Assembly (NCBI RefSeq): GCF_001294645.1
Contig: NZ_CP011868.1
Coordinates: 5,456,001 to 5,520,000 of the forward strand
Direction of reading: 5' to 3'
Length of the DNA: 64,000 bases
Origin: Pseudonocardia sp. HH130629-09
Lineage (GTDB): Bacteria; Actinomycetota; Actinomycetes; Mycobacteriales; Pseudonocardiaceae
Shown here: positions 54,200 to 63,752 of the stretch, piece after piece
Layout of the letters: every line of letters starts with the position of its first letter
How positions within the stretch are numbered: the first letter of the stretch is position 1
Program-made: the position numbers and the translations under genes
Notes under the pieces: generated by a model
What the model was told of the DNA's origin: nothing
The model's database searches: none
What the model saw: the letters and a program-made list of their open reading frames with translations, nothing else

Positions 54200-54283
54200 G
54201 GTCGGTGAGCTTAGAGGTCGTTGCAGAAGTCGGGGCGTGTTGGTCCTATGTAGATGGACCTGGTCGGGTGATGCTCAGAGTTG

Positions 54284-55111
54284 ATGGCAAGGGCATCGAC
54301 GGTCGAACGACTGGTCACCGACGAGCTGTGGGAGCTGATTGAGCCGCTGCTTCCCCGTCCTCGGCCACGTCGGCGAGGCGCGCGGACCGGCCGGCCACCA
54401 GTACCGGACCGGGCCGCGCTGGCGGGGATCGTGTTCGTGCTGACCACGGGGATCGGCTGGAACGACCTGCCGCCCGAGTTGGGCTGTGGATCAGGGACCA
54501 CCTGCTGGCGACGGCTACGCGACTGGCAGCGGGCGGGGGTCTGGGATGAGCTGCACCGAGTAGTGCTCGATCGGCTCGGCCAGGCCGGGGTTCTGGACTG
54601 GTCGCGAGCTGCGGTGGACTCGGTCAGCGTGCGCGCCAAGCGCCGCGGCGAACAGACGGGGCCCTCGCCGACCGATCGTGGGAAGGCCGGGTCGAAGTAC
54701 CACGTGTTGTGCGACCGCAACGGCCTGCCGCTGCACGCGGTCGTGACCGGCGCGAACACCCACGACAGCCGGATACTGGCCGAGCTGCTCGACACCAACC
54801 CCGGCGTCCGCGAACGGCGCGGCCAGGCCGGACGCCCGCGGCGGCGTCCCGGCAAGCTGCACGCCGACAAGGGCTACGACTATCCACGGTGTCGCCGCTA
54901 CCTGACCGGGCGCGGGATCGGGGTGCGGATCGCTCGCCGCGGAGTCGAAGACTCCTCCCGGCTCGGCCGGGTCCGGTGGGTCGTGGAGCGCACGATGGCC
55001 TGGCTGCTGTCGTTCCGGCGGCTCGGGCTGCGCTACGAACGCTCCCGCACCAGCATCGAGGCCTTGCTGAAACTGGCGTGCGCGTTGATCTGTTTGCGCC
55101 GTCTGCCCTGA
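54284..55111 (+). CDS. IS5-family transposase
   Basis: 275 residues from ATG 54284 (TTG 54281 possible). N-terminal DUF4096-like part LVTDELWELIEPLLPRPRPR, ALAGIVFVLTTGIGWNDLPP. DDE: AAVDSVSVRAKRRGE (Asp), KLHADKGYDYPRC (Asp) and RWVVERTMAWLLSFRRLGLR (Glu). Single uninterrupted frame, unlike IS5 members that need a frameshift. Confidence 0.93.
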   Translation: MARASTVERLVTDELWELIEPLLPRPRPRRRGARTGRPPVPDRAALAGIVFVLTTGIGWNDLPPELGCGSGTTCWRRLRDWQRAGVWDELHRVVLDRLGQAGVLDWSRAAVDSVSVRAKRRGEQTGPSPTDRGKAGSKYHVLCDRNGLPLHAVVTGANTHDSRILAELLDTNPGVRERRGQAGRPRRRPGKLHADKGYDYPRCRRYLTGRGIGVRIARRGVEDSSRLGRVRWVVERTMAWLLSFRRLGLRYERSRTSIEALLKLACALICLRRLP

Positions 55112-57261: not shown

Positions 57262-57621
57262 CGGTGACACGGTGACGGTGACACGGTCGACGGGCCGGCC
57301 GTCCGCGTCAGGCTCCAGGACATGTCGTCGGTTCCTGACCCGTCGGTCGGCGTCGGCCGGGAGGTCGGGCCCGCCTTCGCTACTACTCCATCGAGCCCGG
57401 TGGCGCGGCCCGTCGTCGTGCAGAACGGCCGACTCGGCGACGAAACCGTATCGTGTGAATGACTGACCCTCGGTGATTGTTCCCCACGATGGTGTTTCCC
57501 AGGTTGATCCGTGCGCTTTCCGCCCCCTATCGTTCTCCTCAGCCGGTTCGGGCTCCCCCTTTGTCGTCGGACCGGCACGTGCCCGGATCCGCATGGATCC
57601 GTGACTCACCAGGAGAAGACT
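57262..57621. promoter_or_regulatory. Upstream region of first secreted-protein gene
   Basis: 360 bp. Left part has a short repeat (CGGTGACACGGTGACGGTGA). A candidate housekeeping promoter is TTGATC at 57504-57509, 18-base spacer, TATCGT at 57528-57533, giving a leader of about 80 bases. AGGAGAAG precedes the GTG start. Confidence 0.55.
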
Positions 57622-57969
57622 GTGCAGAAGAAGAAGGCCGGTTTCGTCGCCGCCGTGTCCGCCGTCGCCCTGATCGGCCTGTCGCCGCTGGCGTTCGCCG
57701 GCTCGGACAGCGTCATCGACAAGGACGCGAAGGGCCTCGTTGCCGGCCTGAACGGCAACAACGCCCAGGTTCCGGTCCAGGCGTGCAACAACAACGTCCC
57801 GGTCAACGTCCTGGGTGTCCAGGTTCCGGTCGAGGACGCCGCTGCGGCCAACGGCCTCACCGGTGCCGCCGGCATCGCGGGCAAGGGCAAGGCCGTGTCG
57901 GGCGACTCCGCCACCGACCAGTCGGACAACTGCGGCCAGGAGGCCGGCGCGGGCGACTCGGTCAACTGA
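57622..57969 (+). CDS. Small secreted Asn/Val-rich protein, copy 1
   Basis: 115 residues from GTG 57622. Signal peptide QKKKAGFVAAVSAVALIGLS then PLAFA. The mature part of about 90 residues has DKDAKGLVAGLNGNNAQVPV, QACNNNVPVNVLGVQVPVED and a Gly/Ala tail ending DQSDNCGQEAGAGDSVN. Two cysteines. The repeated V-P-V/N-N-N pattern is reminiscent of chaplins (amyloid-forming surface proteins of Streptomyces) but the chaplin GN..PV.VCGN order is not met. Paralogue of the gene at 58299. Probably a cell-surface or released structural protein. Confidence 0.8.
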   Translation: MQKKKAGFVAAVSAVALIGLSPLAFAGSDSVIDKDAKGLVAGLNGNNAQVPVQACNNNVPVNVLGVQVPVEDAAAANGLTGAAGIAGKGKAVSGDSATDQSDNCGQEAGAGDSVN

Positions 57970-58298
57970 CCGGATCCTCGTCGCTGACGTGCCCCGGGGT
58001 CCTCGTGGCTCCGGTGCACGTCCGTGTCCGGGGTGGGGCCCCGTGGGTACCCGCCGTGGTCGTCGTCGCCGGTTCGGGTGGCGTTCCGGGCGATTCGCCC
58101 CGATCACATCCGACCCCACCGTGGGAGTATCCGAACCGAAAGTAATTCGGCCACCCGATGGTGGTAGAAGAATTGTTCGGGCACTCGCGCCCCGCTAGAT
58201 TCGCAGCCAGTCGGCACGGGCTCCCCCCTTTTCTGTCAGCGTGCCGACATGGAACGGGGCCTTCACCGCGGCCCTGACACCTTATCAGGAGAAGAACT
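57970..58298 (+). promoter_or_regulatory. Spacer and promoter of second secreted-protein gene
   Basis: 329 bp. TTGTTC at 58173-58178, exactly 17 bases, then TAGATT at 58196-58201: a good sigma-70 promoter, about 100 bases before the GTG start. AGGAGAAG is the ribosome-binding site. Confidence 0.7.
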
Positions 58299-58685
58299 GT
58301 GCTGAAGAAGGCCGGAATCATCGTCGCGGCGTCCGCCGCGTCCCTGCTCGCCGTCTCCCCGCTGGCCTTCGCCGGCGACTACGCGGGCGACTCCGCCAAG
58401 TACCACGGCAAGCACGAGTCGGGCCACATCGACAAGGACGCCAAGGGCCTGCTCGCGGGTGGCCTGAGCGGCAACAACATCAACGTGCCGATCCAGCTCT
58501 GCAACAACAACATCCCGGTCAACGTCCTGGGCGTGCAGGTCCCGGTCGAGGACGCGAACCTGCTGAGCGGCATCACCGGGGCCCTCGGCCTGGGTGGCAA
58601 GGCCAAGGCCGTCTCCGGCGACTCGGCCACCGACCAGTCCGACAGCTGCGGCCAGACCTCCGGCGCGGGCGACTCGATCGGCTGA
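58299..58685 (+). CDS. Small secreted Asn/Val-rich protein, copy 2
   Basis: 128 residues from GTG 58299. Signal peptide LKKAGIIVAASAASLLAVSP then LAFA. Mature protein shares DKDAKGLLAGGLSGNNINVP, QLCNNNIPVNVLGVQVPVED, GKAKAVSGDSATDQSDSCGQ with copy 1, with an extra N-terminal segment DYAGDSAKYHGKHESGH. Same two Cys positions. It has its own promoter, so the pair is not merely an operon. Function unknown, secretion nearly certain. Confidence 0.8.
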   Translation: MLKKAGIIVAASAASLLAVSPLAFAGDYAGDSAKYHGKHESGHIDKDAKGLLAGGLSGNNINVPIQLCNNNIPVNVLGVQVPVEDANLLSGITGALGLGGKAKAVSGDSATDQSDSCGQTSGAGDSIG

Positions 58686-58804: not shown

Positions 58805-60542
58805 CCCGAATCCGCGAGTAGCGCTGGTGTCCGGACTGGGGAGATGGCGATAGGTGCCCGCTGACCTGCGATGATCGTGTTTGCGACGACACGACATTGC
58901 GGGTTGAGAGGACACCTATCAGGTGCGAACAGTACGCAAGCGACGCCCGCGGTGTGCGCGGGTGCGTCTCGGCGCGCCGGACGCGGCGCTGACCAGGTTC
59001 TCCGGGCTGGCCGCGGTGACCGAACTGATCGACCGGCTCGGGATCATCGACAAGCTCGACGCCGCGGTCGGGCCCATCAAGGACCGCGACCGCGGGTGCA
59101 GCGCCGGGCAGATGCTGGTCGGCATGTCGGCGGCGCAGCTGTGCGGGGAGGACTTCCTGGTCGGGCTGGACCGGCACCGCGCCGACACCGCCGGGCAGGC
59201 ACTCACGCCGGTGCCGGGGTTGGCGTCCACGACCGCCGCCGGGCTCGCGCGCAAGTTCATCGAGGGGCAGTGGGCGGCGGTGGAGACCGGGCTCGGTGAC
59301 GTGCACACCACCGCGCTGGACCTGCTCGCCCAGGTCGACCCGGACCGGGCCGAGCAGCTGACGGCGGACGTGACGATCGATCTGGACACCACCGATGTCG
59401 AGGTTTACGGCCGGCTCAAGCAGGGCGTGGCGTTCAACCACCAAGGCCAGCGGGTCGCCCGCCCGCACGTCGCGACCTGGGCCGACACCGCGGTGGTGCT
59501 GGCCGCTGACCTCGGTTCGGGCCGGGATGACCCCCGCGCCACCAGCGCCGAGCTGTTCTACCGGGCGCTGGCCGCGCTCCCCGCGCAGGCGCGGGCGGGG
59601 CGAGTCCGCGTGCGTGCGGACGCGGGCTACTTCGCCGGGCAGCTCGCCCGCGCAGCCCTGTTCGTCGGCGTGGAGTTCGCCATCGGCGCCCGACGCATCG
59701 CGCCGCTGTGGCGCATCCTCGACGGCGTCGCGGCCGACGGGTGGACCGACGCGATCGACATGACCGGCGCGCAGGTCGCGGTGGCCGACTATTGCCCGAA
59801 CTGGTGGCCCGCAGCGACCCAGCTGCTGATCCGTCGGGTCCGGCTCGACCTGGACCACGGCCAGGTCTCCGGTGACCCGCGAGCGCGGCGCCGACGCACC
59901 CTGCACCCCGCCCAGCGGGCGCTCCCGCTCGACGACCTCGCTACGGTGGCCAAGGTCGACGGGGTGTTCGCCTACTCGTTCATCGTGACCAACCTCGACG
60001 TCTCCACACCTGCCGCAGCCGCGCAGGCCGAGTACTGGTACCGCCACCGCACGAAGGTGGAGAACCTGTTCCGCGACACCAAGCACGGCGCCGCGCTGCG
60101 CCACCTCCCCTCCGGACACCTCGCGGTGAACCGAGCCTGGATGTGGGGCGCACTCCTGGCCGCCACCACCAGCGGGTGGCTGCACCACCTCACCGCCCGC
60201 ACCCGCGACGGGCGCCTGGTCGGGCACGGCGTCCGCGGCGGCCAGGCCATGATCGCCACCCTGCGCCGGCGGCTGATCACCATCCCCGCCCGCCTCGTGC
60301 GCCACGCCCGCGGCCTCACCCTGCGCCTACCACCCGGCGAGCACCTACTCGCCGAGGTCCTCGCCCGCGTCCGCGCCCTGCCCGCTCCGTCCTGACCCGG
60401 CCGCACCGGCCCCGACCAGCACAGGAACCCGCCACCCGAGGCGACACTCGGGCCGCCCGCTTGCCCACCACCCAACTCCCGACCCAAGCAACATCAACTT
60501 TGGCCGACCAAGATCAGCTCATAGCCTACTCGCGGATTCGGG
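58805..60542 (+). mobile_element. IS1380-family insertion sequence
   Basis: 1738 bp with perfect 17-bp inverted repeats CCCGAATCCGCGAGTAG and flanking TCTGA on both sides (58800-58804, 60543-60547). Holds one transposase gene. Inserted in a small MITE-like element. Confidence 0.88.
58923..60395 (+). CDS. IS1380-family transposase
   Basis: 490 residues from GTG 58923. IS4-like DDE core: IDLDTTDVEVYGRLKQGVAF (first Asp), RVRVRADAGYFAGQLARAAL (second Asp) and YWYRHRTKVENLFRDTKHGA (Glu). N-terminal ALTRFSGLAAVTELIDRLGI is typical of the family. Intact. Confidence 0.93.
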   Translation: MRTVRKRRPRCARVRLGAPDAALTRFSGLAAVTELIDRLGIIDKLDAAVGPIKDRDRGCSAGQMLVGMSAAQLCGEDFLVGLDRHRADTAGQALTPVPGLASTTAAGLARKFIEGQWAAVETGLGDVHTTALDLLAQVDPDRAEQLTADVTIDLDTTDVEVYGRLKQGVAFNHQGQRVARPHVATWADTAVVLAADLGSGRDDPRATSAELFYRALAALPAQARAGRVRVRADAGYFAGQLARAALFVGVEFAIGARRIAPLWRILDGVAADGWTDAIDMTGAQVAVADYCPNWWPAATQLLIRRVRLDLDHGQVSGDPRARRRRTLHPAQRALPLDDLATVAKVDGVFAYSFIVTNLDVSTPAAAAQAEYWYRHRTKVENLFRDTKHGAALRHLPSGHLAVNRAWMWGALLAATTSGWLHHLTARTRDGRLVGHGVRGGQAMIATLRRRLITIPARLVRHARGLTLRLPPGEHLLAEVLARVRALPAPS

Positions 60543-61852: not shown

Positions 61853-62569
61853 TCACCCCGCCGGGCGTGCCGTGGTGGCCCGCCGCCGGCCGGCCTTGCG
61901 CAGCTCCAGCACCGCGACCGCGGCCACCGACACGAGCACCGCCGCGATCCACCGCGGACCGGTCAGCGGGGTCAGTCGCAGCGTCTCCCGCAGCGCCGGC
62001 ACCGTCGTGGCCACCCACACGGCCGCGGCGGTCACCACCGTCCACCAGGGCAGGAACCGGTTCGCGAACAGACCCGACCGCAGCACCGGTGTCCGCTCGG
62101 TCCGCATCACCCAGGCCAGCACGAGGTGCCCGGACAGCCACGCCACGAACGCCACCGTCTGCGAGGCGGTCACCAGGTACAGCCCGCCGACGGCGACGAA
62201 CAGCGCCACGGCCCCCGCGGCGAGGTCGCCGAGCAGGGCCCGGTCCAGGAAGCGTGCGCCCGGGTCGCGTGGCGGGCGGTTCATGGCGTCGCGCTCGGCG
62301 GGTTCCGCGGCGAAGGTCGGGCTGCCCGCGATGTCCATGAACATCTCCAGCACCACGATCTGGATCGGGGTGAACGGCACGGACATCCCGGTGAGCACCC
62401 CGGCGGCGACGGTCGCGACCAGCCCGGCCTTGCAGGCCAGGTAGTAGGCGACGCCCTTGCGCAGGTTCCCGTGCAGCGTGCGGCCCTCGTGCAGGGCACG
62501 GGTGAGGGTGGAGACGTCGTCGTCGGCCAGCACGAGCCCGGCCGCCTCGCGGGCCACGTCGGTGCCCGA
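61853..62569 (-). pseudogene. Cation-transporting P-type ATPase, C-terminal part only
   Basis: About 238 residues starting at SGTDVAREAAGLVLADDDVS (normally preceded by AMG.r) and running through the C-terminal six helices (LTGMSVPFTPIQIVVLEMFM, FVAVGGLYLVTASQTVAFVA) to LRKAGRRRATTARPAG. The rest of the enzyme, including the DKTGT phosphorylation site, is absent: an IS481 element begins 6 bases away. The missing part may lie beyond the window's right end. An in-frame TAG sits at the junction. Confidence 0.82.
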
Positions 62570-62810: not shown

Positions 62811-63752
62811 GAGCCTTTGCCAACCTGGTGTTTGAGCTGGTCAGAGCCGGTACGGCGTGGCGTGACCTCGAACGAGTGAAGCTCCTGGTAGACGGGCGAT
62901 TGCTGAGATCGAAACCGTCCAACCAGGAGCTTCAAGGTGCTGTCTTACCCGTCCGGGATGACCGTGTCCAGCCGTGCCCTGCATGTGCTCTCCGACGCGC
63001 TGCGCGCGCACCGCAACCAGCGTCGGAGCCGGTGGCGGAAGCTGACGTGTGGCCGCCAGGCCCTGCTCGTGGTCGCCCACCTGCGTAAGGGCGAGACCTA
63101 CGCCGATCTGGCCTGCGGTTTCCGGGTCGGCACCTCGACGGTGTACCGCTACCTGCGCGAGGCGATCGACCTGCTCGCCGCGATGGCCCCCACCCTCGAG
63201 CAGGCGATCGAGGTCGCCGTCGGCAAGGCGTTCGTGATCCTCGACGGCACCCTGCTGCGCATCGACCGCGTCGGCATGGCCTCGGGCTATGACCGCGGGT
63301 TCTACTCCGGCAAGCACAAGTGTCACGGGCTGAACGTGCAGGTCATCGCCGACCCGGCCGGCCGGCTGGTGTGGATCTCTCCGCCGCTGCCCGGAGCACG
63401 CCACGACATGGGCGCCGCCCGCGAGCACGGCATCGTCGACGCCCTGACCGAGCACCGGATCCCGGCAGCGGCAGACACCGCCTACCAGGGCGCCGGGCCC
63501 ACGGTGGCGGTCCCGCAACGGCGGCGGCGCCTCGATCCCGACACCGGGCGGATGCGCCCGCTGTCGCAGGCGCAGAAAGAGGTCAACATCGCTCATGCCC
63601 GGCGTCGCGGACCGGGTGAGCGGGTCAACGCCGAGCTGAAGAACTGGAAGATCCTGCGCAAGATCCGCTCCAGCCCGAACCAGGCAGGACAGCTCATCGC
63701 CGCAGTTCAGACCCTCATGATCGCCAACACCTGACCAGGTTGGCAAAGGCTC
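62811..63752 (+). mobile_element. IS5-like (DDE_Tnp_4) insertion sequence
   Basis: 942 bp with inverted repeats GAGCCTTTGCCAACCTGGT at both ends and AGT duplicated on either side (62808-62810, 63753-63755). Contains a single transposase gene. Confidence 0.9.
62937..63734 (+). CDS. IS5-like transposase (DDE_Tnp_4/HARBI1 type)
   Basis: 265 residues from GTG 62937. N-terminal HTH LLVVAHLRKGETYADLACGF, RVGTSTVYRYLREAIDLL. DDE core: AFVILDGTLLRIDRV (Asp), IPAAADTAYQGAGPTVAVPQ (Asp) and PGERVNAELKNWKILRKIRS (Glu). Intact. Its terminal repeats match those of the MITE-like element at 58734. Confidence 0.92.
   Translation: MLSYPSGMTVSSRALHVLSDALRAHRNQRRSRWRKLTCGRQALLVVAHLRKGETYADLACGFRVGTSTVYRYLREAIDLLAAMAPTLEQAIEVAVGKAFVILDGTLLRIDRVGMASGYDRGFYSGKHKCHGLNVQVIADPAGRLVWISPPLPGARHDMGAAREHGIVDALTEHRIPAAADTAYQGAGPTVAVPQRRRRLDPDTGRMRPLSQAQKEVNIAHARRRGPGERVNAELKNWKILRKIRSSPNQAGQLIAAVQTLMIANT

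Follow-up and report, generated by a model that had tools for sequence, protein, structure and literature searches.

A tandem pair of predicted exported proteins with a covarying leader hairpin, candidate chaplin-like coat proteins of the Pseudonocardiaceae

A tandem gene pair and its upstream regions

The analyzed stretch of 64,000 nucleotides from contig NZ_CP011868.1 of Pseudonocardia sp. HH130629-09 (hereafter the window) carries two small genes, A and B, arranged head to tail with a gap of 329 bp (Table 1). Their products are paralogues with 72% identity (E 2.4e-37), and elsewhere in the same genome (C1:4493844) there is a third copy that shares 79% identity with A. By inspection, both N-termini present a Lys-rich segment followed by a hydrophobic stretch and an AFA cleavage motif, the layout expected of a predicted signal peptide. 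The two proteins share the pattern GNN..VP[VI]Q.CNNN[VI]PVNVLGVQVPVED and a second Cys near the C-terminus (CGQ...GAGDS), such that each mature protein has exactly two cysteines, 49 residues apart in A. The sequence-only reading of this DNA, which had posited tandem secreted paralogues united by an Asn-triplet motif and two cysteines, is thus borne out by the open reading frames and their identity, and the pattern goes beyond chance in that it recurs in the third copy, in other Pseudonocardia and in a family-wide profile. Its description of the proteins as Val-repeat proteins holds for a single V/P/N-rich segment, there being no array of repeats.

Both mature proteins are acidic and hydrophilic overall (GRAVY -0.15 for A and -0.24 for B), with a value of +0.33 reached by one core segment of A only. 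Neither protein matches any Pfam or NCBIfam family, even at E 10. An AlphaFold2 model of the mature protein, built with 28 sequences, was uninformative (pLDDT 46, no secondary structure), and a weak match to PrrA in a search of PDB sequences with the first profile (E 0.033) was taken as chance.

Table 1. Coordinates of the gene pair, its upstream elements and a neighboring gene, counted from the first letter of the window
Feature	Positions	Strand	Remarks and basis
Conserved upstream box CGATGGTG, gene A	57487-57494	+	Candidate activator site; motif count
Candidate -35 of gene A, TTGATC	57504-57509	+	18-nt spacer; sequence, conserved block
Candidate -10 of gene A, TATCGT	57528-57533	+	Ends 7 nt before hairpin
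Leader hairpin of gene A (AGCCGGTTCGGGCTCCCCC...GGACCGGC)	57541-57576	+	At predicted transcript start; model R1 47.1 bits, E 4e-10 in the window; covarying stem
Shine-Dalgarno AGGAG, gene A	57611-57615	+	Sequence
Gene A	57622-57969	+	GTG start, 115 aa; predicted signal peptide ~57622-57699, mature 57700-57966; ORF, translation, homologues
Core motif of A, CNNNVPVNVLGVQVPVED	57784-57837	+	Begins at first Cys; alignment A1
Conserved upstream box CGATGGTG, gene B	58156-58163	+	Motif count
Candidate -35 of gene B, TTGTTC	58173-58178	+	17-nt spacer; sequence, conserved block
Candidate -10 of gene B, TAGATT	58196-58201	+	Ends 7 nt before hairpin
Leader hairpin of gene B (AGTCGGCACGGGCTCCCCCC...GTGCCGAC)	58209-58248	+	Perfect 8-bp stem; model R1 51.7 bits, E 2.4e-11 in the window; best match genome-wide
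Shine-Dalgarno AGGAG, gene B	58287-58291	+	Sequence
Gene B	58299-58685	+	GTG start, 128 aa; predicted signal peptide ~58299-58373, mature 58374-58682; ORF, translation
Core motif of B, CNNNIPVNVLGVQVPVED	58500-58553	+	Alignment A1
Cation-transporting ATPase	61853-62557	-	C-terminal piece only in the stretch read; relatives have a much longer gene

The sequence-only reading had further assigned each gene its own promoter. A scan with the sigma-70 consensus found nothing; the support comes instead from conservation, 44 of the 45 leaders having TAnnnT just upstream of the leader hairpin (see below), where shuffled sequences gave a mean of 7.5. In the alignment of the 45 upstream regions, a TTTGt-like block is also conserved at the -35 region. 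Further upstream, a CGATNGTG box occurs in 29 of 46 Pseudonocardia upstream regions (shuffled mean 1.1) and in 12 of 31 from other genera (1.2), and it is, by this distribution, a candidate activator site that predates the hairpin.

The surroundings of the pair are rich in insertion sequences, with transposase genes flanking it at 54281-55111 and 58923-60395. Past the downstream transposase lie genes for a thioesterase, an alpha/beta hydrolase and the truncated cation ATPase, in an order kept in the close relative Pseudonocardia sp. ICBG1293 (L026) and partly in P. parietis (L033). A further transposase gene (62937-63734) adjoins the ATPase piece. In ICBG1293, an insertion sequence with a DDE_3 transposase sits between the A and B genes (L026:5630-6700), just upstream of the hairpin and -10 of B.

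The protein family and its relation to chaplins and rodlins

A scan with a single sequence recovered 17 loci, distributed over Pseudonocardia, Actinomycetospora, Umezawaea and Actinokineospora. A profile built from 36 members and including the signal peptide (A1) matched about 220 of 297 Pseudonocardiaceae genomes, in 35 of 46 genera; this tally is an upper bound, since the weakest matches may be driven by the signal peptide, and the matches in other genera whose E-values reach ~1e-31 are safe. Hence, the restriction to Pseudonocardia suggested by the sequence-only reading was too narrow. The loci often comprise two or three adjacent genes, and the 36 members inspected by eye present the Lys-rich N-terminus, hydrophobic stretch and AxA motif. 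When mature-only profiles were compared, the long Pseudonocardia type matched the Actinokineospora, Actinomycetospora and short types with Prob 98, 99 and 96%, respectively; the latter two comparisons exceed every column shuffle, while in the first one of 30 shuffles scored higher, making its null unreliable. In a sample of the class, a mature-only profile (A3) matched the own genome and two genomes of another actinobacterial family. At two loci of that other family (L200, L201), we observed a protein of ~300 aa with three tandem copies of the domain (GLINVTDNNxHVPxQxCNNYVPVNVLGGQ), recalling the multi-domain long chaplins.

Members are also carried by large plasmids of ant-associated Pseudonocardia (NZ_CP012185.1:614752-615111 (L237), NZ_CP012182.1 and NZ_CP013855.1), where they are annotated only as hypothetical proteins. 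The own genome also encodes L007 (C1:182276) and L006 (C1:5802581), two additional small secreted proteins that are divergent and share this type of signal peptide; L007 is preceded by a degenerate version of the leader, GGGGCTCCCG. In the literature searched, we found no paper describing the A/B family or its leader. By its sequences, this is an unnamed, multi-copy, chaplin-like family.

The sequence-only reading had likened the pair to chaplins or rodlins while holding that it matched neither pattern. HMM searches against both families, which it had proposed, gave membership in neither: in the own genome, the chaplin model PF03777 found nothing over its cut-off (10.4 bits at B against 21), and in 150 family genomes nothing rose over the cut-off of NF041022, which we take to be the rodlin model from the 179 bits it gave a rodlin sequence. 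The two halves of the comparison part ways in profile-profile searches. For these, genomes detected with PF03777 supplied the chaplin domains, and genomes detected with NF041022 supplied the rodlins, both sets being presumably Streptomyces, judging from their content. Kinship to rodlins (RdlA/RdlB) was rejected, with profile Prob of 0.15-0.9% and scores inside the shuffle null, despite similar length, acidity, GRAVY (rodlin mean -0.15) and two cysteines, and a comparable occurrence as neighboring paralogue pairs. One Pseudonocardiaceae genome (L208, G518) does encode, behind a longer N-terminus, a segment similar to the central and C-terminal portions of rodlins, scoring 62.8 bits, under the cut-off.

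The likeness to chaplins (ChpA-H of Streptomyces), on the other hand, is weak but stands above shuffled controls. PF03777 was matched by three of the 36 members (best E 0.023), every other Pfam family by at most one. With hhalign, the mature family profile reached chaplins at Prob 52-88% depending on the subset, in short alignments of 17-35 columns whose register varied between runs. A second comparison gave 79, 37, 15 and 81% for four groups, the 79% being that of the Pseudonocardia group, and the short relatives were the strongest of the subsets (81-88%). None of 30 and none of 100 column-shuffled controls scored as high. In the best alignment, VPxQLCxNxxAVLGxxxPxxxP....C of the short relatives falls on VPVNVCGNTVxVIGxLNPAF..C of chaplins, both cysteines included; for the Pseudonocardia type, the alignment register differs between runs.

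Beyond this, both groups are small proteins with a Sec-type signal peptide (in the A/B family, by inspection of the 36 members), two cysteines and several copies per genome, and they share a GN..VPV / C-x-N-x-V pattern and multi-domain long forms. However, A and B are not chaplins proper, judging from the model cut-off, hydrophobicity and Cys spacing. Where chaplins have a hydrophobic domain of ~40 residues (mean GRAVY +0.42 over 25 domains), the mature chains of A and B are hydrophilic with acidic flanks, as is the Pseudonocardia group as a whole (mean -0.36). The chaplin spacing of ~15-20 residues between cysteines is seen only in the short relatives and not in A. Further, no sortase signal was seen in the A/B family, the taxon differs, and the Pseudonocardia leader hairpin was not found at chaplin loci (best E 0.13). 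Apart from the A/B family, PF03777 matches in Pseudonocardiaceae (L133-L159) are located for the most part in open frames of ~1000-1300 residues, frequently several to a frame; these frames possibly constitute a separate set of large chaplin-repeat proteins.

Given the short alignments and shifting register, the V/P/N-rich segments could have converged, with the family being an unrelated group of secreted low-complexity proteins. This is a considerable possibility, and the low overall hydrophobicity and the unreached PF03777 cut-off are consistent with it. However, it sits poorly with an order-dependent score above that of every column shuffle and with the short relatives, in which both cysteines and a VPxxxCxNxxxVxG pattern align with the chaplin domain. 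It is plausible that the A/B family works like chaplins, whose S. coelicolor representatives form amyloid fibrils, with the two cysteines mattering in vivo yet being dispensable for fibrils in vitro (PMC3079736).

Two further roles were weighed. Small, secreted, diverging, multi-copy proteins with two cysteines, some of them on plasmids of ant-associated Pseudonocardia, could be signals or antimicrobial peptides acting on other bacteria or hosts rather than a structural coat. We consider this unlikely, as no immunity, export or modification genes were recognized beside the pair, several similar copies occur per genome, the family is conserved in most genera of Pseudonocardiaceae, and three domain copies in one ~300-aa protein of another actinobacterial family fit a structural role better. 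Distinctly unlikely, too, are exported metal-binding or stress proteins, buffering Zn, Cu or Ni outside the cell through the His-rich N-termini of many Pseudonocardia members (including the third copy, GDKDGDHDHKGGHHHG; compare YHGKHESGH in B), with the CGATNGTG box as a metal-regulator site: the His-rich part is missing from A and many members, the conserved V/P/N-rich core is devoid of His, and there is no constant metal-gene neighbor, the cation ATPase following the genes at this tandem locus alone (as seen in the window, L026 and L033).

A covarying hairpin in the leader

Alignments of upstream regions revealed an element of 36-40 nt, ~70-85 nt before the start codon of nearly every Pseudonocardia member, which folds as a hairpin with a covarying stem and a near-invariant loop, CGGGCTCCC. 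Its consensus is AG[TC]C[AG][GA][CT][AG]C, a loop of GGGCTCCC and 5-15 further bases, and the complementary arm. Among 32 distinct sequences, standard pairs make up 97.3% of stem cells, as against 21-48% with slid partners, and five of the eight stem pairs have changed on both sides. The 3' arms of this training set had been picked as the most complementary; hence, we ran an arm control, in which a leader's own arm paired at 7.7 of 8 positions, foreign arms with at least two differences at 6.6 and shuffled tails at 5.9. A second set of 21 further sequences, outside the training of the model yet found with the model itself, was 98.6% paired against 15-56% with slid partners, again with five pairs changed on both sides. 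A second hairpin in the leader has modest support (mean z -1.4).

The co-changing arms, the frequent G-U pairs (12 of 32 at one stem position and 8 of 32 at another) and an arm spacing that varies by ~9-11 bases suit an RNA stem, as opposed to a fixed dyad, making it quite improbable that the inverted repeat acts purely as DNA, as a two-armed transcription-factor operator, even if a repressor could bind at its position immediately past the -10 and its loop and arm ends are conserved. The TAnnnT element ends 6-7 nt before the hairpin in 43 of 45 leaders, and the transcript is accordingly predicted to begin at the hairpin. Downstream, GGAG is present in all 47 hairpin leaders; the loop CUCC is complementary to this Shine-Dalgarno sequence, both sides being nearly invariant, with one leader having CUCG instead.

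The element keeps almost entirely to genes of this family. When a covariance model of it (R1) was run over the 6.3-Mb own genome, its top three matches stood in front of B, the third copy and A, with E-values from 2.4e-9 to 3.9e-8. It matched at E <= 0.01 in 31 of 40 Pseudonocardia genomes, and 47 of the 48 Pseudonocardia hairpin loci inspected, mostly best R1 matches, have a gene for a family-type secreted protein ~50-80 nt further on. In other genera, matches are marginal (E 1e-4 to 1e-2), the three inspected not being ahead of family genes, and R1 found nothing convincing at family members of other genera, chaplins or rodlins. Therefore, the hairpin, not being seen at the relatives' genes outside Pseudonocardia, is not essential to the role of the protein.

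The fourth R1 match in the own genome (L163, C1:4696171-4696206, E 1.1e-6) is an orphan hairpin directly before a frame of Rieske-dioxygenase-like type that seemingly lacks its N-terminus; perhaps it is the relic of a deleted family gene. At three other loci (L236, L229, L230), this leader and signal peptide stand ahead of small proteins with a strongly diverged mature part, that of L236 being without any NNN/VPVNV core; thus, conservation is higher in the leader and signal peptide than in the mature protein.

No Rfam 15 family matches the hairpin at the loci tested, the sub-threshold matches all lying off it. Known 5'-leader elements in that collection resemble it in placing a structured element between the promoter and the Shine-Dalgarno site, but none matches a hairpin of the A/B type. 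The leader hairpin is a well-supported and apparently undescribed RNA feature, and it looks like a cis-acting mRNA leader dedicated to a regulon of secreted proteins.

A possible coat-protein regulon in Pseudonocardiaceae

Taking these observations together, the explanation we somewhat favor overall is that of an exported Pseudonocardiaceae family working like chaplins, with its own promoters, control through a 5'-terminal hairpin and assembly at the surface. Each gene would be driven by its own promoter, consisting of the CGATNGTG box and the -35-like and -10-like elements, and the predicted transcription start would be the first base of the hairpin, in which compensatory changes maintain the stem and the loop, CGGGCUCCC, is nearly invariant. 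The hairpin at the 5' terminus probably controls mRNA stability or translation, whether by shielding the transcript from decay or by serving as a site for a loop-binding protein or small RNA. The near-invariance of the loop suggests such a reader, which may be a protein, a small RNA or, given the complementarity of CUCC, the Shine-Dalgarno GGAG itself. The protein would be exported and cut after AFA, releasing a short acidic chain that has a single hydrophobic, V/P/N-rich core plus two cysteines and may self-assemble or become disulphide-linked on the surface of hyphae or spores. A chaplin-like role in the hyphal or spore coat is our best guess from the sequences.

A 5'-terminal stem protects bacterial mRNAs from decay starting at a free 5' end. 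Influence on coat genes at the RNA level has a precedent, though not one through a hairpin of the A/B type, in that S. venezuelae mutants in RNase III and RNase J show strongly raised levels of chaplin and rodlin transcripts (PMC12096830). We advance tentatively the bolder, joint proposal that the undescribed hairpin with its CGGGCUCCC loop constitutes a shared post-transcriptional control of a coat-protein regulon in Pseudonocardia and that the proteins are a functional replacement for chaplins.

Many Pseudonocardiaceae, like the streptomycetes, also raise aerial hyphae. A survey of about 100 actinobacterial genomes reported that obvious rodlins were confined to streptomycetes and that chaplin-like proteins occurred in this group and a few further genera, and the parts of it consulted here name no coat proteins for Pseudonocardiaceae (PMC4255298). 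The A/B family would thus provide a concrete coat-protein candidate for this family of bacteria. The hairpin, in turn, offers a means of recognition that does not depend on the fast-changing mature sequence, marking members of the regulon whose mature part has diverged, as at L236 and L229, and it suggests that the synthesis of coat proteins may be controlled at the level of the mRNA.
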